The position numbers and the translations under genes were made by a program. Shown here one piece after another: positions 7,612 to 43,297 of a DNA stretch of 64,000 bases. The DNA comes from Sabellastarte sp. h YS-2021 (taxonomy: Eukaryota > Annelida > Polychaeta > Sabellida > Sabellidae): contig OZ024928.1 in the NCBI GenBank assembly GCA_964017235.1, positions 150,870,881 to 150,934,880 on the forward strand. The letters are read 5' to 3'. Position 1 is the stretch's first letter, and the number at the start of each line of letters is the position of its first letter. The notes beneath the pieces are model-generated. The model searched no databases, was not told the origin of the DNA, and worked only from the letters and a program-made list of their open reading frames with translations.

Positions 7612-7779
7612 CAAGCAATCAGTGCCCCTGAATGGGCTCTGTGTCAGCTGACTATGTGTTTTGAGTTTCAAAGTAGAAGAGACAGAAGAAAAGGACATAA
7701 AAGTTGTGCCCTGCAAGTTAACTGTTTAGGTGTAAAAAGTAGGTTAAAACTTTTTTAAAGATAATACTGCAAATGCAAT

Positions 7780-10250
7780 AGTTTCGAGTTATAACTAATT
7801 TACTCAACAGTGAGAATCTCAAAGTAGTTTTTGCTCAGCTATGCAATCAGTTAAAAGGCTGCAATTTTAAGTAGGTAAATAACATATTCAAAGAAATGCT
7901 GTTAATGAAATAGTTTTCAAGGTATAACTGATTTACTCAACAGTGAGAACCTGAAAGTAGCTATTACTCAGCTATGCAAGGAGCTACAGGTGCACGATTT
8001 TGCTATTTTATATCTGACCCAAAAGTAGGTTAATAACTTATGTAAACAAAATACTGTAAATGCAATAGTTTTCAAGTTACAACCGATTAACTGAACAGTG
8101 AAAATCTAAAAATAGCTATTGCTCAGCTATGCCATGAGCTACAGTTCTACAATTTCACTATGTTATAGCTGACCCATAAGTATGTGAAAAACATATTTAA
8201 ACAGAATACTGTAAATGCAATAGTTTTCCAGTTACATCTGATTTACTCTACAGTGAGAACCTGAAAGTAGTTCTTGCTCTGCTATGCCATGACTTACATG
8301 TCTGCAATATAATTATGTTATAGCTGACCCAAAAGTAGATGAACAACATATTTATAGAAAATACTTTAAATGCAATAATAAAGTTACAACTGATTTATCC
8401 AATAGTGAGAACCTGAGAATAGCTTTTACATAGCTATGTTATGAGCTACACAACAGCAATTTTACAATAATAATATAACTATATTTCAGACATAATATTA
8501 CAGTATATTAGTCCATAGAAACATAAGTGTACAACATAGAGTGGTAGTTAAGAAGAACAAGATTTGTGTAATTAGTTCATATAAATATAAGTATGAAAAA
8601 CATGTACATGTACTAATAGAGAAAAAATAATGTATTTATCTATTGATCACATGGGACTGTTCTGTCCATTACATATATACATATTTGTTCCATATTTTAA
8701 GGATAGAAGAGAGTTTTACAGCACAGCTTGTTAAATATGATACCATAAGAGCATTATCACTTGTATTTATTCTTTGTAGCAAACTGTAGCAGGATATTCG
8801 ATGAATTTCTGGCAAAGAGCAAATATTTTTACTTACAAACATGTTGGAAGCACTGCAGTACATTGGTTGCTTAAATAGTATTCTAAATATGTTATTGTAG
8901 GAAACAACAAATTTTCTGTAGGTAGTGTTTGAGTAGTTACTCCAAAGTGACATAATATACATAGAATACATGTAAGTTTTAAAAAGAACATCTTTAACTT
9001 CTGAGGAGTTGTCTGAAAAATTATTACATAACATGTTTCCTTTAGCATAGTTAGCCTGAACCTGTCTTAAAATGTCCTTGTCATCTACCAGACTGCTGGT
9101 AATGTAATGTCCTAAGTATTTGTATGTGTCAACTAAGGATAAAGCTTTACCATTAATGTATATGTCAGGAAGTTGATTCTTACAGTGACAGTCAAATTTA
9201 CTTAAGGCTGTCATGTATACAGTTTTATTTTCATTGAAGCTAAGATCTAACTTATTACCCTCATGCACACAACAATTTATCAGTTCTTGTAAGCCTTTAG
9301 CTGAGGGGCAGAACAAAACAATATCATCAGCATACATAAGATGATTAATGCGCATTCCTTTGAAAGAGCAGCCTATAATTTTACTGTTTAACTTTTCACT
9401 TATTTCATTCACATAAATATTGAAGAATAGGGGAGAAAGTATTCCACCCTGTCTAACACCATTTATTGTCATGAAAGAATCAGACATAACTGAGCCCCAT
9501 TGAACACACACTTCACTATGAGAGAACCAGAAGACCAGAATTCGTAAGATGTAGAGAGGTATACCCTTTTTGTGTAGAATGTGTATCAATGTACCATGGT
9601 TCACTTTGTCACAATGTTATGCCAACTCAAAAGTAGATGAATAACATATTTAAACAAAATTCTCTGAATGCAATGGTTTTCAAGTAACAACTGATTTATT
9701 CAACAGAGAAAACTTCAAAGTAGCTATTGCTCAGCTATGCAATGAGCTACTGGTCTGCAGCTTTACTATGTTATAGCTGACCCAAAAGTAGGAGAACAAC
9801 ATTTAAACAAAATACTCTACATGCAATAGTTTTCAAGTTACAACTGATTTACTCAACAGTGAGAACCTGAAAGTAGCTTTTACTCAGCTATGCCGTGAGC
9901 TACAGGTCTGCAATTTTACAATGTTATAGCTGACCCAAAAGTACATGAAAAACATATAAAACAAAATACTCTAAATGCAACAGTTTTGAAGATACAAGCA
10001 ATTTACTCAACAATGATAACCTCAAAGTAGCTATTACTCGGCTATACAATGAGCTACAGGTCTGAAATTTTACAATGTTATAGCTGACCCAAAAGTAGCT
10101 GAATAACATATTTATACGAAATTCTCTAAATGCAATAGTTTTCAAGTTACAAGTCATTTTACTTATGACAGAAGTTACTGAAAAGTCCAAAAGTAACTAT
10201 TACTCACTTAGCTATTCAGATAGACACCCAAGTTACTCACCATGTTGTAG
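7780..10250 (+). repeat. 155-bp tandem array, interrupted
   Basis: Monomers carry GATTTACTCAACAGTGAGAA, CTCAGCTATGC.ATGAGCTACAGG, TATAGCTGACCCAAAAGTAG and AAATGCAATAGTTTTCAAGTTA in order. Spacing is about 153-156 bp where undisturbed. The array is broken by the LINE fragment at 8,469-9,610. Monomers here are more diverged from each other than those at 38.6-41.2 kb. Confidence 0.85.
8469..9610 (-). pseudogene. 5'-truncated LINE reverse-transcriptase fragment
   Basis: An open frame of about 311 codons (9,604-8,669, minus) encodes the C-terminal half of a non-LTR retrotransposon reverse transcriptase. Visible motifs are GVRQGGILSPLFFNIY at residues 49-64, and MYADDIVLF with the catalytic YADD at 91-94, followed by a thumb-like region. 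The frame begins abruptly inside the RT domain, with sequence reading DKVNHG just upstream, and there is no endonuclease or ORF1. The insertion is flanked by ACAAT (8,464-8,468 and 9,611-9,615) and splits a 155-bp satellite monomer, the pattern of target-primed reverse transcription with 5' truncation. The 3' end has an ATT-rich tail rather than poly(A). The clade is not assigned; Jockey/CR1-like groups are possible. Confidence 0.8.
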
Positions 10251-10829
10251 CTATGGAAAAAGTAGCTGATAACATATTTTAAGAAAATGCTCTAAATGCA
10301 ATACTTTTCAAGTTATAAGTGATTCAGTGTATGATTTCATGAATTTTAATACAATAAAAATTATTTAAAAAATTCATAAAAAAATAATTAAGAAAGATCC
10401 CGGTCTGATAAGTCAGCTGACATATAAAAAGCGCCAGGCCTGATACTCACACAAGGGAATCTACTAGTGGCCTAGTACATATAAGCAAGATAAGAGAAAA
10501 ATCCCTGCAATAGTCAATGAGAAAATAAGTGATTTAGTGCATGATTTCATGATTTTAATGCATTAAAATTATTTTAAAAATTCATAAAAAATTAAGATAG
10601 ATCCAGGTCTGATCCTCACACAAGGGAATCTACTTGTGGCCTAGTACATATATGCACAGCCTTCAATAGTCCATGAGAAAATTGTGATAAAGTGTTGACA
10701 TTTTCACACTTTTGGTGGGGGTACCTCTCTTGAAATGGCTCTTGGGCAAGCTTTCCTATCCATTTACATTTTGTGCAAATCTGTTTAAGCTAGCTGCAAT
10801 ATTTTAGGTAACAGAAAACATTAAAGATT

Positions 10830-11690
10830 TTAGAACAAACTTTAAGACCCAAATCTTTTAAAAGTTCTGCCATCGCAACAGTTGCCATTGGATACCCCCC
10901 AAAACCTAATCAGCTCTAGATCCTCTTGGGGTACACATATCCTGAAAATTTGGTGAAAGTGTTGCCATGGCAATAGTGGTAGCTGGATACCCCTCAAAAC
11001 TTAATCAGCTCTAGATCCACTTGGGGTAAACATATCCTGAAAATTTGATGAAAATACATCCAGGGGTTTAGGCTGTGGAACACAAACAAACTTTAAGAAC
11101 CGAAAATCTTATAAGTGTTGCCATGACAATAGTGGTAACCGGATACCCCTCAAAACCTAATCAGCTCTAGATCCACTTGGGGTAAACATATCCTGGAAAT
11201 TTGATGAAAATACATCCAGGGGTTTAGGCTGTGGAACACCCACAAACTTTAAGAACCGAAAATCTTAAAAGTGTTGCCATGACAATAGTGGTAACCGGAT
11301 ACCCACCAAAACCTAATCAGCTATAGATCCTATTGGGGTAAACATTTCCTGAAAATTTGGTGAAAATCCATGCAGGGGTTAAGGCTGTGGAACACTGACA
11401 ATTTTATATAAGTGTTGCCATGGCAACAGTTGTTACGGATACTCCCCAAAACCTAATCCGCTCTAGATCCTCTTAAGGTATACATACCCTAAAAATTTGG
11501 TGAAAATCAGTGCAGGGGTTTTGTCTGTGGAACACCCACAAACTTTAACACTTGAAAATTTTAAAAGTGTTGCCATGGCAACAATTGTTGCTGGATACCC
11601 CCAAAACCTAATCAGCTCTAGATCCTCTTTTGGTAAACATCCCCTGAAAATTTGAAAATCTGTGCTGGGGTTTAGGGTGTGGAACACCCA
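10830..11690 (+). repeat. 156-bp tandem array, unrelated in sequence to the 155-bp unit
   Basis: Units carry GTTGCCATGGCAA, GGATACCCC, AACCTAATCAGCTCTAGATCC, AAATTTG.TGAAAAT and GGCTGTGGAACACCCAC in order. GGATAC landmarks fall near 10,985, 11,141, 11,297, 11,437 and 11,593, giving 156 bp with one 140-bp unit. It is followed at 11,700 by a C-rich word (GCCCGCCGCTGCCCACAGCC). The other type-2 element lacks this array. Confidence 0.85.
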
Positions 11691-11883
11691 TAAGCTTTAC
11701 GCCCGCCGCTGCCCACAGCCTTTATGGGTTGGGGTTAAAAGTGAGCATGTCTGTAGGCCTTGTAGTTTTGGAGAAATTGTTCATACGGATGCGTGCGCCA
11801 CAGAGTGACAACATAATGTCAGCTGACTGACAAGTGTGCAGAATTTATTCTTAACTTTTATATATTTAACTTGATACATTATG

Positions 11884-12165: not shown

Positions 12166-12329
12166 GTAGCTTTTTAGGTAATTTTTTTCAAACAGAATGA
12201 GATGAAATAATCAGAATACATTGGGTTTAAACAACAAGGTTTGGTAGTGTAGTGAGAGTTTTTTAAAGTTTTATAAGTTAATACCCTATCCAATGGACAA
12301 TTGCTAATCCGGTCGGTACAGACCAGCCA

Positions 12330-13218
12330 CACTGTCTGGACCCTCTTTGGCCAGCTAGTTCTTGGAAAGAAAGCTGGGTGAGGGGTACAAAGATACTTTA
12401 GACCAGTCCAGTTGATGTCTGATGTTCTTGTTTTGCCAAGCATGGATCTCACTCCTGCATTTACCCAAACCCAGGGCCAAAAGGAAAACAGTCTTGAAGG
12501 TCAAATGCTTCAAAGAGGCCTCATTAAGTGTTTCGAATGGAGCCTTTGTCAACTGGTATAACACCAGGGAGAGGTTCCAGGAGGGAATGCCCCTCCAGCC
12601 TTGGGTCTGTCTCTGTGGAAACTATCCAGGAGACGAGTGAGATTGTCATGTTTGCTGACATTAATGGGTGAATTTCCCAGTTTGTCAGAGATGGCTGATC
12701 TATAGCCTTCAATGGTACTTGGCTGTAACTTCCTGTCCTGGAACAGGTATATTAGGAAGTTGGCTATTGACTTTACAGGGGGGTGCCCTAAAATCCACCT
12801 GATTACTGAGGCACCACTTTGTAAAAATGGTTGACTTGCCTCATAGACTGATCTGGTTGATCCTCTTTGAGGAGCCTCAATCCACTGTTCTTTGATAGCT
12901 GAGGCTCTAGGAGCCATGCATGTAGGTTTAGGTTTGTCAGATTCCTGAGGAGTCTGATTGAAGGGCTGTGTTAGCAGGTTGGGAAGAATGGACAGGCACA
13001 GGGGGATCTGGCTGGACATGGCCATTAGGTCCCAGAACCAAGGCATGTTGGGCCACCCTGGAGCAATCAGACTGATTCTCTTGCATGGGTACTTCTGCAG
13101 CTTCGCCACCACTTTGCCCAAGATGGCTGCTGGTGGGGAGGCATATGCATCCAGATTCTCCCATGGCAGGCTGAGTGCATTCCACTGCCCAGGTCAGGGG
13201 GTCCGGTACTGGTGACAC
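12330..13218 (-). pseudogene. DIRS-2 methyltransferase-like region and truncated tyrosine recombinase
   Basis: The frame at 13,121-12,549 encodes the region with LIAPGWPNMPWFWDL and continues without a stop into the recombinase N-terminus (EAPQRGSTRSVYEA, then a shifted stretch, then a part matching FLxxLFQDRKLQPSTIEGYRSAI). Frameshifts divide the rest. At 12,330 recombinase sequence equivalent to about 21,188 in DIRS-1 joins directly to the 3' terminal repeat. The recombinase part holding H-x-x-R and the nucleophilic Tyr, and the internal complementary region, are therefore deleted. The element cannot encode its own integrase. Confidence 0.7.
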
Positions 13219-14281
13219 AAACAGGGGTAACTTGTTGATCCTCGTGGCAAATAGATCTATTTAAGGCCGGTGCCACCTGCTGCATACTGACTGGAAGACC
13301 TCTGGAAAGAGAGACCACCCTGTATGGATGGTCTGGCCTAGCCTGGATAGCTTGTCTGCTACCACATTCAGCCAGCCTGGAATGTGTCAGGCTTTGAGAG
13401 TCACCTGTTTCCTGGAACACCAGGTCAGGATTCTCCACAGAAGGGTACACAGTGGGCCCGACCTCATACCTCCTTCCTTGTTCATGTATGACATCACCAT
13501 GTTGTTGTCGGTTTTAACAAGAACTATCTTGTCTGAGCAAAGGTACTGGAACTCTTTCAGGGCCAAGAAAAACCACTTTCAGTTCTAGGTAATTGGTATG
13601 CAGCTTACTTTCTGGAAGTTACCAGGTTTCCCCCTGCTGTATGCTCGTTTAAGTGAGTGCCCCATCCTTCTTTTGATGCGTCTGTAAAGATTTGCAGGGG
13701 ATGTTTTAGTGGGTGTAATGGTTGACCTTGAAGCACATTGTTTTCCTCCAGCCACCATTTAGAAGGGGATGCAGTGACTTGGAGATAGGGATCACCTTTT
13801 CTAGTGATTCTGGTACCCTCCAGTTGTTTTTGAGATGCCACTGAATGGGTCTCATTTGGAGTAGGCCAAGGTGAACTTGTTTTTCTGTGGCTGTTAACTG
13901 ACCTATCAAGGACATTAGCTGCTGGACCAGACAGGCCAGTCGGGAGAGTAGTTCAGTATTCTCTGTTGAAGAGTCTGCCACTTGCGAGCTGGACCCAGCT
14001 ACATCTGAGGTTGAACTGGTAACCTATGAAGTCAAAGATCTGTTTTGGGCCAGTTCTGATTTCTCCAAGTTTACTAGCCAACCTTAGGAGACAAGTTGGT
14101 GTGTCCTTATACGCATGTGTAAGACCATCAGATTCCCAGACCAGTTGTTGGGTTTGGTACCAAGGAATTTCGGCTGAAGAAGCCTATGTGTTCTGAGGTG
14201 TGACCAGTGCAACTGCATTCCTTGAAAATGCATGTCATGCCTCAATCTGGTATCTGTTCCTGAGAGGATGTACATGGCCAC
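13219..14281 (-). pseudogene. DIRS-2 reverse transcriptase / RNase H relic
   Basis: Fragments in different frames match DIRS-1: LTATEKQVHLG and QWHLKNNWRVPESLEKVIP (about 13,981-13,790), then LQIFTDASKEGWGTHL (about 13,690) holding the first RNase H aspartate. Further up, around 14,150, a degraded RT motif-2 region reads LVPNPTTG. Frameshifts and stops break it throughout and it is not functional. Confidence 0.7.
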
Positions 14282-15258: not shown

Positions 15259-17217
15259 GCATCAGAGATGCCCGTATCCCACAGCCTGGGGAAAAAGTTT
15301 TCAACACCATGAGATATAGAAGTAGTGAAACAGTACACAGAATGGGATACTTTCAGAAGTGTCAGTGTCCAAATAATATTTAAGTAGAGAAAATAACATC
15401 TAAGAGAAAGAAACTGCATGTAAAGATTACGTATTAAACAGGACAATTCAGTTAACTAAAAATTATGAAGCTTTAAGACCATTTTCATATTCATTTGTAA
15501 AGCTGAATTATGGTTTGCAAGTTTTGAATATTATCCATACATACAGATGTGGCAACACATGCTTTTGTGTGGAGTTCGGGCAAAACCTGTGGCTCACTTG
15601 ATGCAATCCCATCTGTTACAATGGGAAGTTGCAAAAGTAAAACAGTTAATGAATTCTAATATGACTTTAACAGTGCTTAATCTACATCAAAAGACACCCA
15701 AAGGTGCAACAACCAAGATTCAAGTAAAAGATATAAGAGAGATAAAATAGCATCAGATATGCAAGATCAAAGGTCAAATCCAGGTCACACCATGACGTTG
15801 CACACATATAACCCCCGACCAATGTTCCTACCAAATATCAACTTCCAACCACCTTATGGTTTCCGAAATATAGCCCAGACAAGGCATTATAGGTCAAGGT
15901 CACTACAGCAAGGTCAAAGGTCAAATCAAGGTCACACCATGACGTTTTACATCCACACCCTAGCCAATGTCCCTACCAAGTATCAACTTCCTACACCTTA
16001 CGGTTTCTAAGATATACCCCGACAAGATTTTATAGGTCAAGGTCACTACAGCAAGATCAAATCAAGGTCAGGCCATGACGTTGCACACCTACACCGCCTA
16101 ACCAATGTCCCTACCAAGTATCAACTTCCTACACCTTATGGTTGCCGAGATATAGCCCGGACAAGATTTTGTAGGTCAAGGTCACTACAGCAAGGTCAAA
16201 TCAAGGTCACGTCATGACTTTGCATACCTACAACCCCTAACCAATGTCCCTACCAAGTATCAACTTCCTACACCTTACGGTTTCCAAGATATAGCCCGGA
16301 CAAGATTTTATAGGTCAAGGTCACTACAGCAAGGTCAAATCGAGGTCAGACCATGACATTGCACACCTACACCGCCTAACCAATGTCCCTACCAAGTATC
16401 AACTTCCTACACCTTACGGTTGCCGAGATATAGCCCGGACAAGATTTTGTAGGTCAAGGTCACGTCATGACTTTGCATACCTACAACCCCCTAACCAATG
16501 TCCCTACCAAGTATCAACTTCCTACACCTTACGGTTTCCAAGATATAGCCCGGACAAGATTTTATAGGTCAAGGTCACTACGGAAAGGTCAAAGGTCAAA
16601 TCAAGGTCAGACCATGATGCTGCACACCTACACACCCTTACCAATGTCCCTACCAAGTATCAACTTCCTACACCTTACGGTTTCCGAGATATAGCCCAGA
16701 CAAGATTTTATAGGTCAAGGTCACTACGGCAAGGTCAAACCCAGGTCACACCATGACATTGCACACCTACACCCCCTAACCAATGTCCCTACCAAGTATC
16801 AACTTCTTACACCTTACGGTTCCCGAGATATAGTCCGGACAACATTTTATAGGTCAAGGTCACTACGGAAACGTCAAATCAAGGTCAGACCATGACATTG
16901 CACACCTACACCCCCTAACCAATGTCCATACCAAGTATCAACTTCCTGCACCTTACGGTTTCTGAGATATAGCCTGGACAAGATTTTCAAACTCAAGGTC
17001 ACTATGGCAAGGTCAAAGGTCGAATCAAGGTCAGACCACGATGTTGGACATCTACACCCCCTAACCAATGTCCCTACCAAGTATCAACTTCCTACACCTT
17101 ATGGTTTCTGAGATACAGGCCGAACAAACTTCTTCCCGCCACCCACCCGCCCACCCATCCAGACACCATGGGTGAAAACAATACCCCGACAGCCCTTAAG
17201 GGCTGTAGGGTAAAAAC
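15259..17217 (+). mobile_element. Type-3 satellite-bearing element, copy a
   Basis: The 5' arm starts GCATCAGAGATGCCCGTA followed by TCCCACAGCCTGGGG and CACCATGAGATATAGAAG. The 3' arm is a C-rich run (17,131-17,158), then CACCATGGGTGAAAACAATA and the hairpin CAGCCCTTAAGGGCTG ending in GGGTAAAAA. The same arms bound elements at 33,018-34,422 and 61,825-62,770, all in + orientation. The core is a 139/146-bp tandem array. The 5' word TACCCCACAGCC (best seen in copy b) is nearly the reverse complement of the 3' GGCTGCGGGGTA, suggesting short terminal inverted repeats. No protein is encoded. Confidence 0.75.
15760..17100 (+). repeat. 139/146-bp tandem array
   Basis: The unit carries ACCAATGTCCCTACCAAGTA, TCAACTTCCTACACCTTACG, GAGATATAGCCCGGACAAG and one or two AAGGTCAAA words. 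Landmark starts are 16,101, 16,240, 16,379, 16,494, 16,640, 16,779, 16,918 and 17,064. Spacing is 139 bp, or 146 bp where a 7-bp AGGTCAA word is duplicated, with one 115-bp deleted unit. Confidence 0.9.
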
Positions 17218-19205: not shown

Positions 19206-19228
19206 GGCGGGTTGCGCAGGCAGCAATA

Positions 19229-19460: not shown

Positions 19461-19998
19461 GCAGGCAGCAATAAGGTTAGCGACTGCTGTAATTAAATTT
19501 AGAAACAAGGGGAAATGTTAGGTCACTCAGTTAAGGTGAATGTGTTAGACGTGCTAAGAAATGTAAAACTTGTCTACAGGATCGATGTATCGTAGATATA
19601 TGCAGAAGAAGACGGTAATAGTGGTCATGAACCTACCAAAATATGTTCATAATTTTTAGAAAATGGACGGAATTACACCAATTTCAAAAGCAACTTAGCT
19701 ATGATGGTGGTCTCCCTGTCAAGTTTGCATCCGATTAGACAAAGCGTTTTCGAGTTAAAGTATGGAAACGGAAATGTTGACGGACAAACGAACAAACAAA
19801 CAAACTGAATTACACCAATTTCGAAAGCAACTTAGCTATTATGGTGATCTATCTCCATGTCAAGTTTGAATTCGACTGGACAAAGTGTTTTCAAGTTAGA
19901 GTCTGTAAACTGAAATGTTGACGGACAAATGGACAAAAAACGGACAAACAAGGACACAGAATTTTGCAAATTTAATACGTAAATTAAATTTTTATAAG

Positions 19999-20176
19999 TT
20001 AATACCCTATCCAATGGACAATTGCTTTACCAGTCGGCGCGACCAGTCCCGCCAAACGTCAGAAAAAGACGTCCTGTATATACTACCGGCAGGACCAGTC
20101 ACAGAGTGTGCATTCGCCAGGTGGCGCATCGTACTTCATTTCCTGTTTACCTATTGACGTCATAGCATCTTTTTCG
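19999..20176. repeat. DIRS-1 3' inverted terminal repeat
   Basis: Reverse complement of 25,986-26,162 with a handful of differences. Both contain GACGTCCTGTATATACTACC and CAGGTGGCGCATCGTACTTC. The outermost bases differ between the two ends (AAGTTAATACCC here, GCGTTAATACATCC at the other end), as expected of DIRS elements. Confidence 0.88.
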
Positions 20177-20238
20177 TGTCTAATCCTAGTAAGACCCCTA
20201 GTAAGCTGATAGCGGGGCCGGTCGGGTGGGCCTTGCCT

Positions 20239-20334
20239 GTCCATTGGATAGGGTATTAACTTATAAAAATTTAATTTACTTATTAAATTTGCAATTTTAT
20301 TGCGTTAATACATCCTATCCAATGGACAATTGCT
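20239..20334. repeat. DIRS-1 internal complementary region
   Basis: The first half (to about 20,295) is the reverse complement of the outer 3' terminus (19,964-20,020). The second half (TTTTATTGCGTTAATACATCC onward) is the reverse complement of the outer 5' terminus (26,140-26,175). The junction reads TTGCAA|TTTTATTGCG. In the DIRS replication model this region templates joining of the cDNA ends into a circle before recombinase-mediated integration. Confidence 0.88.
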
Positions 20335-23915: not shown

Positions 23916-23959
23916 TTACAGAGTCCTTCAATCCGACCACATTTGAAACACAATAATTG

Positions 23960-26162: not shown

Positions 26163-26334
26163 TAACGCAATAAAAACACCATTTTACGAAAGCAACTTAG
26201 CTATGATGGTGATCTATCTCCCTGTCAAGTTTGAATTCGATTTGACAAAGTGTTTTCCAGTTAGAGTCTGGAAACAAAATGTTGACAGACAGACACATCA
26301 GTCTAATAGGCGGGTCGGTTACATGCGACCCGCC

Positions 26335-29159: not shown

Positions 29160-30930
29160 AAAAATCCCCTAGTTTTACTACATAAGGATATAATTTCATT
29201 AATATTGGGACTTAAAGCTCACTTAAAGTGTCCATTTTGTCTACTTCAATATGTTTCACCAGTTTCATTTTAAAAAGTGAAAAACTCAGCAAGCAGAGGT
29301 ATAACACACAAAAATAAGTTCTTAAAAGACTAAGATAGCCATAACATTATTAATATTCAAAATTTAAATAGACAGGCATTTCCTTTTAAAAATTCAAAGA
29401 TTTCAGCTCTATAACCCACATAGTTTGACAGTTACTGGGCTTTAAAGTGGCATAATATCCATAAATTGGGTTTCTGTGAGCATTTTACAATTGTTAAAGA
29501 GACCTTAGCAATTAAACTACAGATCTGAAACTTTTTGGGGGGACATACATAACAAACAAAAATCATATATAATACAGTTTAAGACTTGTCACACTAAGCA
29601 TTTCCAAATAACAGGGCAAAATACGGAAAAAATGTCAAAAAAGGCACTTGGGCGAGTGTCTATGGCCCTCATACACAGGTTAAATGTCTACTAAAAACCT
29701 TGATTTTCGGCATATGTAAAAAGGACATAATAATGCATTCCCAGATGGGATTTCAGCTCCATCAATCACATAGTTTAACAGTTACAGGGCTTAAAGGTGG
29801 TAAAAAGTCCAAATATTGGGTCATTGTGGGCCTTTTAGAGATCTCGATGTGGCTTTCAAATTAAAGCTTCAGACTTAAAATTTGTTACATACTAAGATTA
29901 CACATAGAATATGTATCTAATAAAGTTTGAAACTTCTCAGACTTACCATTTCCAAGTTACAGAGCAAAATATGTGAAAAATGTCTTAAAAGGGTCACTCA
30001 GGTGGGTGTTAAAGGTCCTCATACACAGGTTAAATGTCTACTTGAAGCCTTGATTTTTGGCACATGTAAAAAGAACATAATAATGTATTCCCAGATGAGA
30101 TTTCAGCTCTATCAGTCACATAGTTTAACAGTCACAGGCCTTAAAATTGGCAAAAAGTCCAAATACTGGGTCTTTATGGGCCTTCTAGAGACCTAAATGT
30201 GGCCTTCAAATTAAAGCTTCAGACTTAAAATTTGTCACATACTAAGATTACACATAGAATATGCATCTAATACAGTTTGAAACTTCTTAGACTTACCATT
30301 TCCAAGTTACAGGGAAAAATATGTGAAAAATGTCTAAAAATGGTCACTCGGGTGGGGATTTATGGTCCTCATGCACAGGTTAAATGTCTTCTTAAAGCCT
30401 TAATTTTTGGCACATATAAAAATAACATACTAATATCTTCTCAGATAGGATTTGAGCTCTATCAGTCACATAGTTTGACAGTCACAGGGCTTAAAAGTAG
30501 CAAAAAGTCCAAATATTGGGTCTTTGGGAGCCTTTTAGAGACCTCAATTTGACCTTCAAAATTAAAGCTTCAGACTTAAAATCTGTTACATACTAAGATT
30601 ACACACAGAATATATATCTAATACAGTTTGAAACTTCTCAGACTTACCATTTCCAAGTTACAGGGAAAAAGATGTGAAAAATGTCTTATAAGGGTCACTC
30701 GGGTGGGTGTTTATGGTCCTGATACACAGGTTAACTGTCTATTAAAGGCCTAAATGTTGGGGCACATATAAGAAAACACATAGATATATTCCCAGATGAT
30801 ATTTAACTTAGATGAGAGACATAGTTTGAAAGCTACAGTGCTTGAAAGTGGCAAAAAGTGCATAAATTGGGTCTCTGTGGGCACTTTTGAGACCTTAAGT
30901 CGACCCCTTTGGGTAAACCTACAGCCCTAA
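29160..30930 (+). repeat. 351-bp tandem array
   Basis: Units share TTAAAGCTTCAGACTTAAAA, CTCAGACTTACCATTTCCAA, CACAGGTTAAATGTCTA and TCAGTCACATAGTTTGACAG. Landmarks at about 29,512 (diverged), 29,863, 30,213 and 30,564 give 350-351 bp spacing. Outer units are more diverged than central ones. Confidence 0.88.
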
Positions 30931-31370
30931 AATTTTCTACAGACAAGGATTACATATCAAAGTTATACCTAGCGCAGTTTGAGACTCATCAGAATTATCA
31001 CTTCCAAATTATAGGGCAAAATATGTGTAAAGTATAGCAAAAAATCCCTAAGTGGGGGTATTTATGGGCCTCAAACACAATTTTCTCCTCAACTTAAAGT
31101 CATGATTTTCGGCACATGTACTAAGAACATATTAATGTGTTGTCAGGTAAAATTTCAGCCAGCTGAGCATCATAGTTTGTGACCTACAGGGCTCTAAGTG
31201 GCCAAAAGTGCAATTTCTGACCTTAAGGTGGCCATAAGTTCTTTTTTACTGGGAGTTTAAGGTCACCTTAAAATAGGGATCTTCCTTTGGGCACCCTTAA
31301 CATGTGTACCAAGTTTGAAAAAAAAATATTAATTTGTTTTTGAGTTATCGCGTCCACAAGGAAATTTCTA

Positions 31371-31397
31371 CGGCGGCGGCGGCGGCGGCGGCGGCGC
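31371..31397 (+). repeat. CGG trinucleotide run at type-4 3' end
   Basis: About eight CGG units followed by CGCGACGGACC. The same run occurs in the second copy near 43,220-43,246. It is the only strongly GC-rich block in the element. Confidence 0.9.
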
Positions 31398-31448
31398 GAC
31401 GGACCTGAATCCAATATATCCCCGACTTTCGTCTGGGGATATAATTAT

Positions 31449-33017
31449 GCACTTTTCATGACATAAAGAGAATGACACTTGAGTAAAATATGCATTAAAA
31501 TTCCACATACAATCTAGTCTCTGGTTTTTGTTGGAAAGGATGGGCGTTTATGCATATTTCACATGTTTTGGGGGATGGGCGATAATACGAACATGTGTGC
31601 TTCCGTGGATGATTTCGTTACTTACTTACAAATGATTCAATAGCTGGTCACTTTACAATGAGATACTCCTCAAGTAGTTATTTTTCCCAGAAGCAAACTT
31701 TCTTGTGATCAAGCGGATGATACACTTGATAAAGGTGATTTAATGACAGATACGCAACAATTATCTGGTACCTTTCATAGAAGCATTAGTATGGCAAATA
31801 ACGGCATGTTTGAGACTTTATATATTGAAATACTAGATAATAATACATATCTGATAACTTGAAGTTAAGACTTAATTTCCTAAATTATGGTTAAACAGTG
31901 ATGAACAACAGCATAACTTAAAATTCTTAGGCTTCATTAAAGTCCTTTCTATCTCAGGACATTTAAATACATATTGCTTTATTAATACTGCACTACATGG
32001 GATACCTGTGAATATAAATAAATTTTTGTTTTCATGTAAAATGAATACAAGTAACTTGTTATGCTCAACACATTGAAAACAAATGTATAGGTTGGTCTGT
32101 ACTATTTATTTGCCTAGTCCTCTGTACACGTGCACACTTCTACATATGCACTTTGTGCACACACAGAGGCCCACTTAGTTGGCAGGAGGCTAGGACAAAG
32201 CTGGCAGGCATCCAAATGAGATTTGCAGAGTCTTTGTGTGGCTTGCACTAGTGTTGAGCTGATTCACTGGCGGTGTGTTGAAACCACACAGTGTACAGTG
32301 TACAGGACCAGACCTTATGTACACATACACAGTGTTTCCCAGTCAGTGTTAGAAACCTGTACAGTTTGTAACAACTATAATCAGATCCGTCAAGGAAAAC
32401 AGTAACTTTTGGCAACATCCTTGAATTAATTTTGAAACGTCTTGTCTGACAATAAATATTAATAATGCATATGATTATTGAAATAATTTATAATACTTCT
32501 ACAGTTTCTTATATATTTATTATTATATGATTTGTAGGAAAAAAAATGTTAATTCATAAAAAATTTGGGGACTCTATTTTCACATAAAATGGGGTAATTC
32601 AATTCACATTACATGTAATAAAATATAAAACTCATTTCAATTCTAATCATTTGGAGTTTCTTATTTCCAATATTATTTGGGCCTGTTTTACTTCTAATCC
32701 ATGAACATAACAATATGAATAACAAAGAATAAAATAAATATGTACAAAACATTAGTCTGAAATAAGAAAATAACTTTTTTTTTGTTTTGCAATAACAGAG
32801 ATATGTACAAAATTGATAACCACATTTATTGCATATACAAACACAAAGGTACAATTTACAGTCTTACTGTCTGTACCCAATAACCACGTCTACCAGATCC
32901 AAAAATTATAGAAATATTTGCAATATGTTTTGGTCACAACTGAAACCATGGTATGGATTAAATGGGAAGGATTATTGCAAACATAGCTAAAGCACTGGAG
33001 CTTAGCAATAAAAAAAA
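31449..33017. other. Non-coding interval
   Basis: AT-rich, with a short CA/TG-rich patch (32,130-32,350). No gene, terminal repeat or tandem structure seen. Confidence 0.5.
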
Positions 33018-34422
33018 GCATCAGAGATGCCCGTACCCCACAGTCTGGGGAAATAAATTTCAACACCATGAGATACAGAAGTAGTGAAACTGAACAAAGA
33101 TCGGGATACCTTCAGAGCAGTGTCAGTTATATAAAGGTCCAACTAATGTTTAAGTAGAGAAAATAAAGTTTAAGACAAAGAAAATGTATGTAAAGATGAA
33201 GTATTAAAACAAGCAATTGAACAGCAAAATGACAACATTAATCAGTAAACTAAAAATTATGACGCTGTAAAATTTATTAACTGGAGAATGGATGTCAATG
33301 GAAAATAGCATGATTATGTAAAAGTACATATAATAATCAGTTGCAGCAATCCATATATCTTTGTCAAAAGAGAAACATGTCTCAAACATGGCAGGTGAAC
33401 ACACTTTGGCAGAGCTAAAGCTAAAGATCACACCATGATGCACACCTACACCCCCTAACAGGGTTTGAAATTAACAAAAAATCTGCCAGTCCACGACCCA
33501 CAGAAATACCTTCAGGTCAAAAAGATTAAGAACCTGCAAGTCTGATTGTTCTGCAAGCTGTTTATGTACACACATCTTGCATGGTGGAATTATGGTTGGG
33601 ATGTTTTGAATATTGTCCAAACATACCAAAGTGACCTAATACATTTGTGTTTGGATTTAAAACCTCTCCCATCTTTATACATGTTTGCATGGTTGAATTA
33701 TTGCTTGAATTTTTTTAATACTACCCATACATACAGATGTGGCAATACAATGTCCCTACCAAGTATCAACTTCATATACCTTACGGTCTCTGAGATATAG
33801 CCCGAACAAGATTTTATACGTCAAGGTCAAATCAAGGTCACATCATGACGTTGCACACATACACCCAATACCAAGTATTAACTTCCTACACCTTATGGTG
33901 TCCGCGATATAGCCCAGACAAGATTTTATAGGTCAAGGTCACTACGGCAAGGTCAAAGGTCAAATCAAGGTCACACCATGATGTTGCACACCTACACCCC
34001 CTAACCAATGTCCCTACCAAGTATTAACTTCATACACCTTACGGTTAGCGAGATATAGCCCGGACAAGATTTTATAGGTCAAGGTCGCTATGACAAGGTC
34101 AAATCAAGGTCACACCATGATGGTGCACACCTACACCCCCTAACCAATGTCCCTACCAAGTATCAACTTCCTACACCTTACGGTTTCGGAGATATAGCCT
34201 GGACAAGATTTTCAAACTCAAGGTAACTGCGGCAAGGTCAAATCAAGGTCAGACCATGACGATGCACACCCGCACCCCCTAACCAATGTCCCTACCAAGG
34301 ATTAACTTCCTACATCTTACGGTTTCTGAGATACATCCCAGGTAAACTTTTTCCTGCCCGCCCACCGGACACCATGGGTGAAAACAATACCCCGACAGCC
34401 CTTCAGGGCTGCGGGGTAAAAA
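33018..34422 (+). mobile_element. Type-3 satellite-bearing element, copy b
   Basis: 5' arm GCATCAGAGATGCCCGTACC then CCACAGTCTGGGG. The core has about five 139/146-bp units (33,750-34,330). The 3' arm has a short C-rich run (CCTGCCCGCCCACCGG) and the hairpin CAGCCCTTCAGGGCTG ending in CGGGGTAAAAAA. The 5' TACCCCACAG and 3' CTGCGGGGTA are inverted with one mismatch. Confidence 0.78.
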
Positions 34423-36047
34423 ACTGCAGATTTTGTTTGGTTAATGATTGGGTAAAAATGTAACCCCATTAACTGACGAAAACAAGTCCTCCATCTGATA
34501 AAGAGGTCCATGAAAATATATGACTCAGTTTCTTTAGAAGCAAATACTATAAGGACGCTAAAAATATGAAAATGTATTTTAGGAACCAGTAAATGAATCC
34601 AGAATCTTTTATTTACGCAATTATGGGTGATTATGAGGATAGTGGTAAAAGTTTTACTAGGCACTAACTGGGCCTAATGTCACGCTATTTGTCACACTCC
34701 CAAAAGGGGATTATTTTCTCCCTTCTTGCAATCATTGATTCTGCAAGTAAAAACAAATTTTGATTCTGCAAGAAAAACAGGTCGTATTTTCAGTGATTGG
34801 GAAGGGGGGGGGGGAAGAGACAAAAAATACTGCCTTAATAATACTACCTAATCTCACAGTAATTATGACGGCTGGAGCAAGAGATGTGAAACTCGTAAAA
34901 AAAATATACATATATATTACTATTCACTTGTGTAGCATTAAACTTAAGAATAGAAAATTTGAAATTTTGCAAGAGTTTTGCTTCATTCATCCAATTTGTA
35001 CAATTTTTTTTTTAACATATAGGGGTTGCCACAATGGGGAATTTTCCCATCACTTATTTCATGTAATACCCTCCTGAACACACCCACTTTAAATATATTA
35101 CCCTTTTGATGTTTTGAGTAAAAGTCACAACCGTTATACTTACGCAAATGTAAACAACTTTGAAGGAATTTATTCCCTACTTAGTCAGTTCCTTGGAAGA
35201 AAAAAAAACATACAGCTAATGCACTTTCAGTAATCTGTATGTACACTACACTATGTACAAAATAATCTTTGATTTTCACTTTGATTACATACAATGATAC
35301 AAGTATGATGTAACTTATAACACAATTCCAAAGTAATAAATATCTATACTACAGAAGCAATACTGTTATAATTTTCAGCAAAAATAAGTTAACAGTTGCT
35401 ACTAGAGCTAATAAATAATTTGCATATTTCACCCATAAATTGAGAGGTCCAAAAAAGGCAACTCCTTAGCCAGTTCCAAATTTCAACTTATTTTTATCAC
35501 GGATGCATACTTGATTTATCAAAAGCCTGCAGTGTCACCTTTATATTGTTATAGTACTATCTGCAGAAAATTATGTTTAATATGAAAACCTATTTTAAGT
35601 TGACAAGTACACATAAAAACTGTCTACACATCTGCTAATGTATGCAAAATGCAAATAGGTACAAACTGAATGATAAATGAAAATACAATGAAAGATTACA
35701 GTCAGTAGATATTCACCAAAGTGGTGTATTAATACTAATGAGAATGAGGCTTGAGTTCCCGTAAAACTCCCACAAATATTGAGAACAAAACAGATGAAAA
35801 GGGGACCATTGCTGGAAACAATATACATTTAATTGTCACAAATGTGAACAAAAGCAGCTATAGGTGATAGCAAAATAGGGCTATTCACCAAAATCTTTAA
35901 GACAATTATGGAGGGGTAGATGGGCTATTTGGAATCCCAGACCATGGTTGGTTTTAAACTACCTCACAATACTTTCTGTTTAAGCTACAAACCCAATTTG
36001 CATATTCAATAACATACTGAACCTGTATAAGGTCCTAACTGTGATAA
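34423..36047. other. Non-coding interval
   Basis: AT-rich, with a G run at 34,804-34,814. No recognised gene or repeat structure. Confidence 0.5.
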
Positions 36048-37796
36048 AACTAGATTGGGCCAACTCGGCGCCAACATATCCCCAGACAGGTCATCACTCA
36101 CGCCACAGGTTTTGATCGGGAATTTTTTAAAACATAATTACCCATTATTATATGAACTTCAGCACATCAATCTACTCTGTTTATATCTCCCCAAGGAAGA
36201 TGGTGTATCCCCAGACGCCGAATACATACCTCAAATTATATTTTCAATCTTCCTGCAATGATAACTCTAAACCTATTTTCAAAGTATTTAAATGATTGAT
36301 GATTGAATGTCCATTCTAAAATAATAATCCCAAAAGAGCATATCTGTTTCTATATTTGTTGACAAATAAAATATTATTTTTAACTCAACTCATCATATTT
36401 TTCAATCTTCCTTCAAAGTATTTAAATGATTGATGATTCAATGTCCATTCTAAAATTCATAATCCCAAAAGCGCATATCTGTTTCTATATTTGTTCAGAA
36501 ATAAAATATTATTTAAAAAAAAATTATTTATATTATTATTTTATTATATTATTTTTAGAATTTGCAAATTGTTTTCAGTTATTCATTTCCTCTATACCTA
36601 TATATGTGGTCCATATATATGCAACCTAAATATGTGACACAATCTCAGTTCTGACTCCCCTTTGTGTTATATGTAATGAAGCTCACCACCTCCCACCCCC
36701 ACCCCTCTCCCCTTCTCCACACCTCTCTCACTATTACACAAGATCTGCAACCCCATTGAGTTCTTTGTTTCTCATCTGATATCACTAAATACCTTTGTTT
36801 ATTTAGTGTCACTCAATATAGCTGGAGGTCCCAGAGGTGGGTGGGGGGAATCCGGGTGGGGGATGTGGGTTGAGCATAAATGGTAAACAAACAATCTATA
36901 TAAAAGGGGTACTCAAATACAAAAAGAATTGAGAATTTTAAGTATGTGATTATCAACTGAAATGAGTTCATAACTGTAGGAGCTGTGCCAAAATTAACTG
37001 AGGCAAGTTGAATAAAACTGGGCTAGTTGAGGGTTAAAAATCCCCTAGTTTTACTACATAAGGATATAATTTCATTAATATTGGGACTTAAAGCTCACTT
37101 AAAGTGTCCATTTTGTCTACTTGAATATGTTTAACCAGTTTCATTTTAAAAAGTGAAAAACTCAGCAAGCAGAGGTATAACACACAAAAATAAGTTCTTA
37201 AAAGACTAAGATAGCCATAACATTATTAATATTCAAAATTTAAATAGACAGGCATTTCCTTTTAAAAATTCAAAGATTTCAGCTCTATAACCCACATAGT
37301 TTGACAGTTACTGGGCTTTAAAGTGGCATAATATCCATAAATTGGGTTTCTGTGGGCATTACAATTGTTAAAGAGACCTTAGCAATTAAACTACAGATCT
37401 GAAACTTTTTGGGGGACATACATAACAAACAAAAATTATATATAATACAGTTTAAGACTTGTCACACTAAGCATTTCCAAATAACAGGGCAAAATACGGA
37501 AAAAATGTCAAACAAGAGGAGAGTGCCCGTGAACGGGCACTGTGTCAGCTGACTGAATGTTTTTGATTTGTGATGGTGATAATGAGAGGAAAGCATAATT
37601 ATCAGGGAAAGGGCTGTACAGAAATACAGTAAATGGTAACTGAACAGCATGTTCGAAAGATATTCCGAAGCTGACAGAAGAAAAGGACAAAAAAGTTGTG
37701 CCCTGCAAATGGTATTATGAAATAAAGTAACAAGGTAATTGTTTAAGTGTAAAAAGTAGGTTAAAAATATTTAGAGAAATACTATAAATGCAATAT

Positions 37797-38612
37797 CCTC
37801 GTTCGACCATGAAGAAGGGGTCCAAAGGTCAAATCTGACCATACCAAAAGATTCCCAGCCAAAGAATTTAGGATGGTTTACCATCCCAAACCTCTCGGAC
37901 CAATAATAAGTGAGTCATAGGCACTTTTTAAGTTTGGCTATCCTTGTTTGACCTTGACGGAGGGGTCCAAGGTCAAATCCGACCACACAAAAAAATTCCC
38001 AGCCCATGATTTCCTGTAGCTTGTTTACCATCCCAAACCTGTAGGACCAATAATAAGCGAGTTCTAAGCAATTGTAAGTTTGGCTATCCTCAATTGACCT
38101 TGAAGGAGGGGTCCCAGGTCAAATCTGACCACACCAAAAGAATCCCAGCCCATGATTTCCTATATGTTGGTTTACCATCCCAAACCTCCAAGACCAATAA
38201 TACGCGAGTTATAAGCACTTTAAGTTTGGCTATCTTCGTTTGACTTGGAAGGAGGGGTCTAAGGTGAAATCCGACCACACCAAAAGATTCCCAGCCCATG
38301 ATTTTCTATAGGTTGGTTTTCCATTCCAAACCTCTAGGACCAATAATAAGTGAGTTATAAGCACTTTTAAGTTTGGCTATCCTCATTTGACCTTGAAGGA
38401 GGGGTCCAAGGTGAAATCCGACCACACCAAAAAATTCCCAGCTCATGATTTTCTATAGGTTGGTTTTCATTCCAAACCTCTAGGACCAATAATAAGCGAG
38501 TTATAAGCACTTTTATGTTTGACTATCCTCATTTGACCTTGAAGGAGGGTTCCAAGGTCAAATCGGACCATATTAACAGATTCCCAGCCCATGATTTCCT
38601 ACAGGTTGGATA
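37797..38612 (+). repeat. 146-bp tandem array private to type-2 copy 2
   Basis: Units share GACCTTGAAGGAGGGGTCCA, GAC(C)ACACCAAAAGATTCCCAG, GGTTTACCATCCCAAACCTC, GGACCAATAATAAG and AAGTTTGGCTATC. GACC-GGAGGGG landmarks fall near 37,951, 38,096, 38,242, 38,388 and 38,533, about 146 bp apart. It stops abruptly at a junction with the 155-bp array. Confidence 0.88.
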
Positions 38613-41250
38613 CAATGATTTACTCAACAGTGAGAACCTGAAAGAAGCTATTGCTCAGCTATGCCATGACATAGAGGTCTGCAATTTCACTATGTTATAG
38701 CTGACCAAAACGTCTGTGAATAACATATTTAACAAAATACTCTAAATGTAATAGTTTTCAAGTTACAACTGATTTACTCAAGAGTGAGAACCTCAAAGTA
38801 ACTATTACTCAGCTATGCAATGAGCTACAAGTCTGAATTTTTGCTCTGTTATAGCTGACCTAAAAGTAGGTGAACAACATATTTAAGCAAAATACTGTAA
38901 ATGCAATAGTTTTCAAGTTACAACTGATTTACTCAATAGTGAGAACCTGAAAATAGCTATTGCTCCGCTATGCCATGAGCTATAGGTCTGTAATTTCACT
39001 ATGTTATAGCTAACCCAAAAGTAGGTGAACAATATATTTTAACAAAATACTCCAAATGCAATATTTTTCAAGTTATAGCCGATTTACTCAACAGTCAGTG
39101 CCTGAGAATAGCTATTGCTCAGTTGTGCCATGAGCTACAGGTCTGTAATTTCACTATGTTATAGCTGACCCAAAAGTAGCTGAATAACATATTTGCACAA
39201 ATTTCTGTAAAGGCAATAGTTTTCCAATTACAACTGATTTACTCAACAGTGAGAACTTCAAAGTAGCTATTACTCAGCTATGCAATGAGCCACAGGTCTG
39301 GAACTTCACTATGTTATAGCTGACCCCAAAATAGGTGAATAACATATTGAAACAAAATACTCTAAATGCAATAGTTTCCAAGTTATAAGTGATTTACTCA
39401 ACAGTGATAACCTAAAAGTAGCTATTACTCAGCTATGCCATGAGCTACAGGTCTGAAATTTTACTATGTTATAGCTGACCCAAAAGTAGCTGAATAACAT
39501 ATTTATACTAAATTCTCTAAATGCAATAGTTTTCAAATTATAAGTGATTTACTCAACATTGAGAACTTCAAAGTAGCTATTACTCAGCTATGCAATGAGT
39601 CACAGGTCTGGAACTTCACTATGTTATAGCTGACCCCAAAATAGGTGAATAACATATTGAAACAAAATACTCTAAATGCAATAATTTCCAAGTTATAAGC
39701 GATTTACTCAACAGTGATAACCTAAAAGTAGCTATTACTCAGCTATGCAATGAGCCACAGGTCTGGAACTTCACTATGTTATAGCTGACCCCAAAATAGG
39801 TGAATAACATATTGAAACAAAATACTCTAAATGCAATAGTTTCCAAGTTATAAGTGATTTACTCAACAGTGATAACCTAAAAGTAGCTATTACTCAGCTA
39901 TGCCATGAGCTACAGGTCTGAAATTTTACTATGTTATAGCTGACCCAAAAGTAGCCGAATAACATATTTATACTAAATTCTCTAAATGCAATAGTTTTCA
40001 AATTATAAGTGATTTACTCAACATTGAGAACTTCAAAGTAGCTATTACTCAGCTATGCAATGAGTCACAGGTCTGGAACTTCACTATGTTATAGCTGACC
40101 CCAAAATAGGTGAATAACATATTGAAACAAAATACTCTAAATGCAATAATTTCCAAGTTATAAGCGATTTACTCAACAGTGATAACCTCAAAGTAGCTAT
40201 TACTCAGCTATGCCATGAGCTACAGGTCTGAAATTTTACTATGTTATAGCTGACCCAAAAGTAGGTGAACAACATATTTAAGCAAAATACTGTACATGCA
40301 ATAGTTTTCAAGTTCCAACTGATTTACTCAATAGTGATGACCTAAAAGTAGCTATTACTCAGCTATGCCATGAGCTACAGGTCTGAAATTTTACTATGTT
40401 ATAGCTGACCCAAAAGTAGCTGAATAACATATTTATACTAAATTCTCTAAATGCAATAGTTTTGCAATTACAACTGATTTACTCAATAGTGAGAACCTCA
40501 AAGTAGTTATTACTCAGCTATGCAATGAGCTACAGGTCTGAAATTTTACTATGTTATAGCTGACCCAAAAGTAGGTGAACAACATATTTAAGCAAAATAC
40601 TGTAAATGCAATAGTTTTCAAGTTACAACTGATTTACTCAATAGTGATGACCTAAAAGTAGCTATTACTCAGCTATGCCATGAGCTACAGGTCTGAAATT
40701 TTACTATGTTATAGCTGACCCAAAAGTAGCTGAATAACATATTTATACGAAATTCTCTAAATGCAATAGTTTTCCAATTACAACTGATTTACTCAATAGT
40801 GAGAACTTCAAAGTAGCTATTACTCAGCTATGCAATGAGCCACAGATCTGAAACTTCACTATGTTATAGCTGATCCCAAAATAGGTGAATAACATATTGA
40901 AACAAAATACTGTAAATGCAATAGTTTCCAAGTTATAAGCGATTTACTCAACAGTGATAACCTAAAAGTAGCTATTACTCAGCTATGCCATGAGCTACAG
41001 GTCTGAAATTTTACTATGTTATAGCTGACCCAAAAGTAGCTGAATAACATATTTATACGAAATTCTCTAAATGCAATAGTTTTGAAGTTATAAGTGATTT
41101 ACTCAACAGTGATAACCTAAAAGTAGCTATTACTCAGCTATGCCATGAGCTACAGGTCTAAAATTTTACTATGTTATAGCTGACCCAAAAGTAGCTGAAT
41201 AACATATTTATACGAAATTCTCTAAATGCAATAGTTTTTAAGTTACAAGT
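38613..41250 (+). repeat. 155-bp tandem array with higher-order structure
   Basis: About 17 monomers in strict 155-bp register: the GATTT landmark is at 39,236, 39,391, 39,546, 39,701, 39,856, 40,011, 40,166, 40,321, 40,476, 40,631, 40,786, 40,941 and 41,096. Monomers fall into sequence variants (GATAACCTAAAAG type, GAGAACTTCAAAG type, and CACAGGTCTGGAACTTC versus TACAGGTCTGAAATTTT). These recur in order, with a 465-bp (3 x 155) block at 39,391-39,855 nearly repeated at 39,856-40,320. Confidence 0.92.
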
Positions 41251-43297
41251 GATTTTACTCATAATGGAAGTTACTGAAAAGCCCAAAAGTAGCTATTACT
41301 CACTCAGCTATTGAGACAGGCACCCAACTTACTCACCATATTGTAGCTATGAAAAAAGTAGCTGAATAACATATTTTAACAAAATGCTCTAAATGCAACA
41401 CTTTTCAAGTTATAAATGATTTTGTGCATGATTTCATGAATTTTAATGCATTAAAAATTAAAAAAATTTATTAAAAAAAAAGTAAGACAGATCCAGGTCT
41501 CATACTCACACAAGAGAATCTACCTCTGGCCTAGTACATATATGCAAGATATGAGAGAAATCCCTGCAATAGTCACTGAGAAAATTGTGATTAAGTGTTG
41601 AAATTTTCACACTTTTGGTGGGGGTACCCCCCTTGTAATGTCTCTAGCAAACAGACGAACAGACAGATTTGCATGCCTTGAACAATTTTTCATCCTCGAT
41701 AGATAAGGTATCTTTTAAAAAAAACAGCACGTCTCTAGGCCTTGTAGTTTTGGAGGAGAAGTTGTTCACGCGGACGCGTACGCCCACGCCGCAGAGTGAC
41801 GACATAATGTCAGCTGACTGACAAGTCAGCTGACATAAAAAGGCACTTGGGCGAGTGTCTATGGCCCTCATACACAGGTTAAATGTCTACTAAAAACCTT
41901 GATTTTCGGCATATGTAAAAAGGACATAATAATGCATTCCCAGATGGGATTTCAGCTCCATCAATCACATAGTTTAACAGTTACAGGGCTTAAAGGTGGT
42001 AAAAAGTCCAAATATTGGGTCTCTGTGGGTCTTTTAGAGATCTCGATGTGGCTTTCAAATTAAAGCTTCAGACTTAAAATTTGTTACATACTAAGATTAC
42101 ACATAGAATATGTATCTAATAAAGTTTGAAACTTCTCAGACTTACCATTTCCAAGTTACAGAGCAAAATATGTGAAAAATGTCTTAAAAGGGTCACTCAG
42201 GTGGGTGTTTAAGGTCCTCATACACAGGTTAAATGTCTACTTGAAGCCTTGATTTTTGGCACATGTAAAAAAAACATAATAATGTATTCCCAGATAGGAT
42301 TTGAGCTCTATCAGTCACATAGTTTGACAGTCACAGGGCTTAAAAGTAGCAAAAAGTCCAAATATTGGGTCTTTGGGAGCCTTTTAGAGACCTCAATTTG
42401 ACCTTCAAAATTAAAGCTTCAGACTTAAAATCTGTTACATACTAAGATTACACACAGAATATATATCTAATACAGTTTGAAACTTCTCAGACTTACCATT
42501 TCCAAGTTACAGGGAAAAAGATGTGAAAAATGTCTTATAAGGGTCACTCGGGTGGGTGTTTATGGTCCTGATACACAGGTTAACTGTCTATTAAAGGCCT
42601 AAATGTTGGGGCACATATAAGAAAACACATAGATATATTCCCAGATGATATTTAACTTAGATGAGAGACATAGTTTGAAAGCTACAGTGCTTGAAAGTGG
42701 CAAAAAGTGCATAAATTGGGTCTCTGTGGGCACTTTTGAGACCTTAAGTCGACCCCTTTGGGTAAACCTACAGCCCTAAAATTTTCTACAGACAAGGATT
42801 ACATATCAAAGTTATACCTAGCACAGTTTGAGACTCATCAGAATTATCACTTCCAAATTATAGGGCAAAATATGTGTAAAGTATAGCAAAAAATCCCTAA
42901 GTGGGGGTATTTATGGGCCTCAAACACAATTTTCTCCTCAACTTAAAGTCATGATTTTCGGCACATGTACTAAGAACATATTAATGTGTTGTCAGGTAAA
43001 ATTTCAGCCAGCTGAGCATCATAGTTTGTGACCTACAGGGCTCTAAGTGGCCAAAAGTGCAATTTCTGACCTTAAGGTGGCCATAAGTTCTTTTTTACTG
43101 GGAGTTTAAGGTCACCTTAAAATAGGGATCTTCCTTTGGGCACCCTTAACATGTGTACCAAGTTTGAAAAAAAAATATTAATTTGTTTTTGAGTTATCGC
43201 GTCCACAAGGAAATTTCTACGGCGGCGGCGGCGGCGGCGGCGGCGCGACGGACCTGAATCCAATATATCCCCGACTTTCGTCTGGGGATATAATTAT

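Follow-up and report, generated by a model that had tools for sequence, protein, structure and literature searches.

How can one transposon come to carry unrelated tandem arrays in different copies? The question is raised by a stretch of 64,000 nucleotides (the window) from the annelid Sabellastarte sp. h YS-2021 (assembly GCA_964017235.1, contig OZ024928.1, positions 150,870,881 to 150,934,880, forward strand), which holds two copies of one mobile shell, here called shell A. A preliminary description of the window had proposed that both copies share their 5' and 3' arms and a 155-bp array, with an extra 156-bp array in copy 1 and an extra 146-bp array in copy 2, and Tandem Repeats Finder and a self-comparison of the window confirm this layout. 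The arms do co-terminate, as that description also required: both left ends start with ACAAG and ATAATGTCAGCTGACTGACAAGT is common to both right ends, copy 1 lacking the outermost ~13 bp. The extent given there (7612..41836) takes in the stretch between the elements, which is other sequence; the elements themselves span 7611-11836 and 37512-41837. Very probably, the 146- and 156-bp arrays entered shell A as cargo of other elements built like it—named D and B, respectively—whose inner ends were later lost by deletion, and the resulting composite was then multiplied.

The three array units are unrelated, as had been judged by eye. Best local scores between the 155-, 156-, and 146-bp units were 18, 17, and 15; shuffled sequence gave means of 17.2, 17.0, and 17.6, and the observed scores were reached by 75, 106, and 190 of 200 shuffles; their likeness is thus no greater than that of shuffled sequence.

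Judged by its sequence, shell A is built like a non-autonomous element of the Helentron type (HINE) and carries a 155-bp array. Its left-end motif occurs at 14,845 places in the 1.79-Gb genome (at most 2 mismatches; none for the reversed control). Copies were sampled systematically by taking the first 20 of 100 listed places, which lie at 0.7-6.8 Mb of contig C1 and match the end motif without mismatch; together with the two in the window they make 22 copies and 23 left ends, since one locus has two. The left ends read ACAAG (once ATAAG), a hairpin, and then TGTCAGCTGAC; where the right end is intact, it has the sequence ATGTCAGCTGAC-TGACAA-GTCAGCTGACATA, with minor variation. An A precedes all 23 left ends and follows all 15 intact right ends (six of the 22 copies have no intact right end, and the match of copy 1, being internal, was dropped). 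This corresponds to the TT (AA) target without target duplication that is typical of HINEs. On the minus strand, the layout comprises a palindromic subterminal repeat and a microsatellite at the 5' side, and the same repeat with a hairpin ~11 nt from the end at the 3' side. In copy 2, the 11-bp subterminal inverted repeat TGTCAGCTGAC is found at 37543-37553 (+) and 41825-41835 (-) with no mismatch, and its hairpin, with an 8-bp stem ~11 nt from the 3' end, folds at -10.9 kcal/mol (z -4.15). For the right end, read on the minus strand, the fold energy is -14.1 kcal/mol (z -7.97), a value equalled by none of 200 shuffles. The central tandem arrays and a variable GCGGAC/GCGTAC stretch near the right end, the latter judged by eye, also belong to the HINE pattern, as does the absence of any open reading frame of at least 150 aa within either window copy, save that of an inserted reverse-transcriptase fragment, which splits the 155-bp array of copy 1 at ~8469-9608. 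Most of these traits—palindromic subterminal inverted repeats of at least 11 bp, a 3' hairpin near the end, no coding capacity, a T-rich target without target modification, and an optional microsatellite and tandem repeats—are those listed for HINE/DINE-1 elements in the portions of PMC4067079 consulted.

The mode of insertion can be read from copy 2, which sits inside an element with a 350-bp array. A paralogous element in the window provides the empty site (29539-29758, +): the joined flanks of copy 2 (100 + 120 bases) match it at 219 of 220 positions, with no gaps and no target duplication, and copy 2 is therefore a precise insertion of 37512-41837.

The best documented inner element is D, which starts with ACTAGACCTA, a hairpin, and AAATTGTATCCACC, and ends with CCGGTGGATACAA or near it in the two loci where it lies complete inside shell A (L015 and L008, both on the sampled contig and among the 20 copies). 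When D is removed in silico from these loci (1,691 bp in L015, and 5,241 bp in L008, whose D contains other sequence), the leftover 155-bp unit aligns over 160 bases to ordinary arrays at 93-94% identity and with 0 gaps. In these old shell copies, D is a precise insertion splitting a 155-bp unit. D also exists independently of A: the motif of its left end occurs at 5,495 places genome-wide (3 mismatches allowed; control 0), and four free D loci, picked by hand among 100 listed of these places, are without A arms over the 2.8 kb read, with 146-bp arrays present in three and absent in one. The A-D junction recurs at 449 places (2 mismatches allowed), and the nested pair has therefore been copied as a unit.

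Other copies hold D in progressively reduced form. In young copies, the left half of D is lost, leaving the fusion AAATGCAATA|TCCTC; the right end of D lies at a different phase of the 155-bp unit, and D carries another internal deletion than in the old copies. Copy 2 and others of its type have lost the spacer as well, and only GGATACAA remains of D's right end. Genome-wide, the fused 155|146 left junction is found at 8,475 places (1 mismatch), the right end of D adjoining a 155-bp array at 7,653 (2 mismatches), and the junction form of copy 2 at 4,204 (2 mismatches), with no hits for any of the controls; these junction counts were made at differing mismatch limits and are not to be subtracted from one another. 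The different phase and the different D deletions favour, without proving it, a second insertion as the simpler reading, by which D would have entered A at least twice.

Several further D-related sequences were observed. In L053, two D elements lie head to tail, the right end of the first adjoining the left end of the second. Arrays of 139/146 bp with AAGGTCAAATC..CACACCA motifs, also present in the 146-bp unit of D, occur in the window at 15770-17127, 33738-34366, and 62200-62791, as well as beside or within other elements (L009, L046). A repeated block at 53597-54990, outside shell A, shows 73-75% similarity to the 146-bp unit on the minus strand.

The sampled copies place these forms in proportion. 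The 146-bp array is present in 16 of the 20, in the fused form in 14 and within a complete D in 2, and is absent from 4; the 156-bp array is found in none. As the preliminary description had supposed, one shell thus carries different arrays in different copies. All 14 copies with a young left end hold the fused 155|146 junction (at most 2 mismatches), which in L027 is placed further in, its arm being interrupted. At the other junction of these young copies, 7 keep D's end motif, 5 have the more eroded form of copy 2, and 2 (L010, L014) have neither. Among the 6 copies with an old left end, 2 hold the complete D with its 146-bp array and 4 hold no 146-bp array. Of the 8 copies that belong to copy 2's type, 7 have a 146-bp block of 816 bp; in the remaining one, L011, it measures 669 bp. 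Arm identity is 99.0% among 8 copies of copy 2's type (a set that includes L014, whose right junction did not fit the pattern, and L047), 94.6% among 6 of the 7 copies keeping D's end (without L027), and 92.6% among 4 old copies (without L012, L019, and L021). From this divergence of the arms, the order would be insertion, then erosion, then a burst of copying.

The number of 155-bp units varies from ~2 to ~35 per copy, the longest run counted (~34 units, L016) lying inside a shell copy; array length therefore changes inside the shell, which suits the idea that each array was born in situ by tandem duplication of sequence already present there. For the 155-bp array itself such an origin is possible. 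As a general explanation it is extremely improbable, given that the 146- and 156-bp arrays are found in other elements with other ends and that the units are mutually unrelated. In situ birth of these two arrays was rejected, both being cargo of transposons with their own ends. Where repeated capture or in situ birth had been offered as alternatives, it is capture, more than once, that stands. In the loci read, where several arrays run off the locus or are unassigned to an element, no long free satellite of these units was seen, and array lengths were not scanned over the whole genome.

The 156-bp array belongs to element B, whose end motifs are AACCCCAGCC and GGCTGGGGTT. When a query over the shell-156 junction of copy 1 was searched, the 39 others among the 40 best places matched only from 10739 onward. 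The B loci are such best matches and no random sample. Among them, L046 is a shell A with B in the A-tract of its right arm, both B ends being present, and this B is itself interrupted by an element with a 139-bp array. In copy 1, the right end of B lies at the same place in the A-tract; on the other side, the shell (...AATGG) is fused to B (CTCTTGGGC...), with CTCT present in both parents at the fusion point. The same A-tract (41717-41724 in copy 2) receives other elements in other copies, and in L024 and L027 another A starts in it, only left junctions having been seen there. The possibility that the 156-bp array is a regular part of shell A was rejected on the basis of the junction query and of its absence from all 20 sampled copies. 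Elsewhere in the right arm of copy 1 (10411-10424), AGTCAGCTGACATATAAAAAG resembles the right end of the shell and is perhaps the trace of another nested copy.

Could HINEs with common flanking modules have recombined, or undergone gene conversion, so as to set a second array beside the first? A, B, D, and a further family, C, coexist at high copy number, and some of the fusions, among them the 155|146 fusion of the young copies, consist of no more than a break from one repeat to another, which speaks for this explanation. It is nevertheless very unlikely: a D that is complete at both ends, and whose removal gives a gap-free empty site in A, is the product of an insertion, and the ends of A, B, and D are unrelated, so that the flanks needed for such an exchange are not shared. 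The eroded forms would likewise owe their breaks to deletions, as the short stretches of shared bases at the break points suggest, rather than to recombination.

Acquisition by nesting would then proceed as follows. D and B, built like A and carrying 146- and 156-bp repeats, respectively, would insert at A|A (T|T) positions and duplicate no target bases, D splitting a 155-bp unit and B entering the right arm at its A-tract. T-rich targets are preferred by HINEs, whose own arrays and tracts may supply them; a HINE inserted in a HINE would be a shell with two arrays. Internal deletions would strip the ends of the inner element and leave bare arrays, and the outer element, its ends intact, would spread with the foreign array as one element. 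The arrays of copies 1 and 2 would look captured because most of the inner element was subsequently deleted. Movement itself would probably be of the rolling-circle type, with the enzyme of a partner.

A cluster at C1:92.81-92.83 Mb was also observed. The 8 kb read there (L047, G000:C1:92808600-92816600) are a shell A multimer with one left end, in which a complete A joins, 15 bp before its right end, the middle of a further 146-bp array without a left end. Over the cluster, six matches to one 155-bp unit are spaced at 3,623-3,629 bp, suggesting at least five further units. This arrangement is consistent with rolling-circle movement and resembles the rolling-circle, truncated-Helitron multimers described in the accessible portions of PMC12628747.

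Several observations weigh against the nesting and erosion of D and B in shell A, or against parts of this account. The left-end hairpin of copy 1 has decayed (fold z -0.49; 55 of 200 shuffles as good). Unlike the HINE/DINE-1 elements with Helentron partners presented in the consulted portions of PMC4067079, shell A has no autonomous partner found in this genome: Rep (PF14214) has 24 matches, and GTCAGCTGAC is not present near the 4 of them inspected (1.5 kb around two matches, and ~4-kb pieces on both sides of two others). The young and the old copies of A could stem from one D insertion with extra deletions. For B, the right hairpin in L046 is shortened, and the empty site there is unclean: identity is 81%, and of the 217 aligned columns 15 hold gaps, three of these within the A-tract. 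L046 also holds the only other 156-to-shell right junction seen and read; C5:91177105 is one more possible place. Finally, family C, found at five places (L032, L034, L036, L048, which extends L033, and L049, which extends L037), has 146-like (75-83%), 155-like (71-77%), and 156-bp arrays in this order, within shell ends that differ from those of A. The 146-155 pair in the same order reflects either common descent or a similar composite of greater age.

Family C is also the observation that speaks for differential loss, by which the 146-, 155-, and 156-bp arrays, arranged in this order, would all have been present in an ancestral shell, with different ones disappearing from copy 1 and from copy 2. 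Where C was read at length (L048, L049), however, the 156-bp part begins with B's own left end and is hence nested there too, and none of the sampled A copies holds it. Moreover, the 156-bp array of copy 1 carries B's own right end, in the A-tract where L046 holds B with both ends, and D in A is a precise insertion splitting a 155-bp unit. Differential loss is thus an unlikely origin of the two shell copies, and the entry of both arrays as cargo of D and B is preferred. The features of the two copies are listed in Table 1.

Table 1. Parts of the two copies of shell A, in window positions.
Feature	Position	Strand	Remarks
Copy 1 of shell A	7611-11836		HINE-type, old-type left end; minus strand in Helentron reading direction
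Copy 1, left arm	7611-7735		Decayed hairpin 7622-7639; subterminal repeat TGTCAGCTGAC 7642-7652
Copy 1, 155-bp array, part one	7735-8468		Tandem Repeats Finder block 7737-8450 and self-comparison
Reverse-transcriptase fragment inside the 155-bp array of copy 1	8469-9608	-	Pfam RVT_1, E 3.5e-19
Copy 1, 155-bp array, part two	9609-10324		Tandem Repeats Finder block 9611-10152 and self-comparison
Copy 1, right arm, partly duplicated, ending at the fusion with element B	10325-10738
Truncated element B in copy 1	10739-11741		Inner part, 156-bp array, and B's own right end (~11713-11741)
156-bp array of copy 1	10834-11699		Tandem Repeats Finder 10956-11699; unit homology from 10834
Copy 1, right end with TGTCAGCTGAC (11817-11827)	11742-11836
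Copy 2 of shell A, young, most eroded type	37512-41837		Precise insertion in 350-bp-array element (empty site)
Copy 2, left arm	37512-37794		Hairpin GTGCCCGTGAACGGGCAC 37523-37540; subterminal repeat TGTCAGCTGAC 37543-37553
Copy 2, 146-bp array (remainder of element D)	37794-38609		Left fusion AAATGCAATA|TCCTC; Tandem Repeats Finder
GGATACAA, last remnant of D's right end, adjoining the 155-bp array	38608-38615		Copy 2
Copy 2, 155-bp array and divergent last units	38616-41422		Tandem Repeats Finder 38611-41261
Copy 2, right arm	41423-41837		A-tract 41717-41724; GCGGAC/GCGTAC microsatellite-like stretch ~41766-41789; palindromic subterminal repeat 41808-41835

The window holds other elements as well. 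The HINE-like element with a 350-bp array is present in three copies, 96-99% alike (28170-31451; 36047-37511 with 41838-43300; and 63019-64000, cut by the window end), the second of which received copy 2 of shell A. The stretch 20006-26156, with a related one at 12326-14084, is read here as a DIRS-like retroelement: reverse transcriptase and RNase H lie in the open reading frame 21957-23915 (-), 172-nt inverted arms lie at 20006-20177 and 25985-26156, and a weak phage-integrase match is found in 20719-21657 (-), at 24.7 bits and below the cut-off of 27.1. Arrays of the 152-bp type (581-1754, 19661-19963, and 26176-26298) flank this element on both sides in opposite orientation. Inverted repeats of 173 nt, 100% complementary and 5.0 kb apart (46669-46841 and 51858-52030), may mark the two ends of a DNA transposon of recent date.

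That one shell can hold different arrays in different copies is already published for oyster Helentron-type elements. Among the Cg_HINE elements of Crassostrea gigas, the accessible portions of PMC7492417 describe related flanks with unrelated arrays (group 2) and elements with two arrays, related or not, and for the double arrays they put forward recombination, capture of junction fragments, and a filler-DNA model of multiple insertions. Like shell A, Cg_HINE elements have non-autonomous Helentron anatomy, central arrays mostly of 140-180-bp units, a TT target without target duplication, and many copies; their sequences differ from it as far as could be judged, the two being set apart by description. 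Likened by description too is the bivalve Pearl family, with modular shells, short arrays of ~160-bp units, and many copies (PMC7492417, PMC5139131, both in part). The 2025 review PMC12628747, in the portions consulted, presents shuffled oyster loci in which array-bearing Helitron parts are inserted, deleted, tandemised, and recombined, with elements inserted in other elements, several array types per element, and one array type in several elements. Nesting and erosion are therefore not claimed as unpublished, nested elements being found in that review and the filler-DNA model in PMC7492417. What is added here is the route at the level of junctions: whereas the consulted oyster text offers hypotheses only, intermediates of array gain are seen, and in contrast to the shuffled loci of the review, one composite junction has been multiplied to thousands of copies. 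Set against the HINE/DINE-1 elements of PMC4067079, what is particular to this genome is the set of 155-, 146-, and 156-bp arrays together with the high order of nesting.

A broader proposal, advanced tentatively and somewhat less likely to be right than wrong, is that HINE arrays and A/T tracts might serve as landing pads for other HINEs, with nesting and erosion of inner ends as the main source of new shell-satellite combinations. Units might then pass between families without a free-satellite stage, and eroded composites could outgrow simpler shells.

The value of the locus lies in the surviving stages seen side by side, with the inner element whole, half eroded, and down to eight bases, together with the copy numbers for each junction. 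The route by which one transposon gains two unrelated arrays, left among several ideas in the oyster work, becomes testable in any genome with such elements. A satellite that seems to have been captured by a transposon may, in turn, be the eroded remainder of another transposon.

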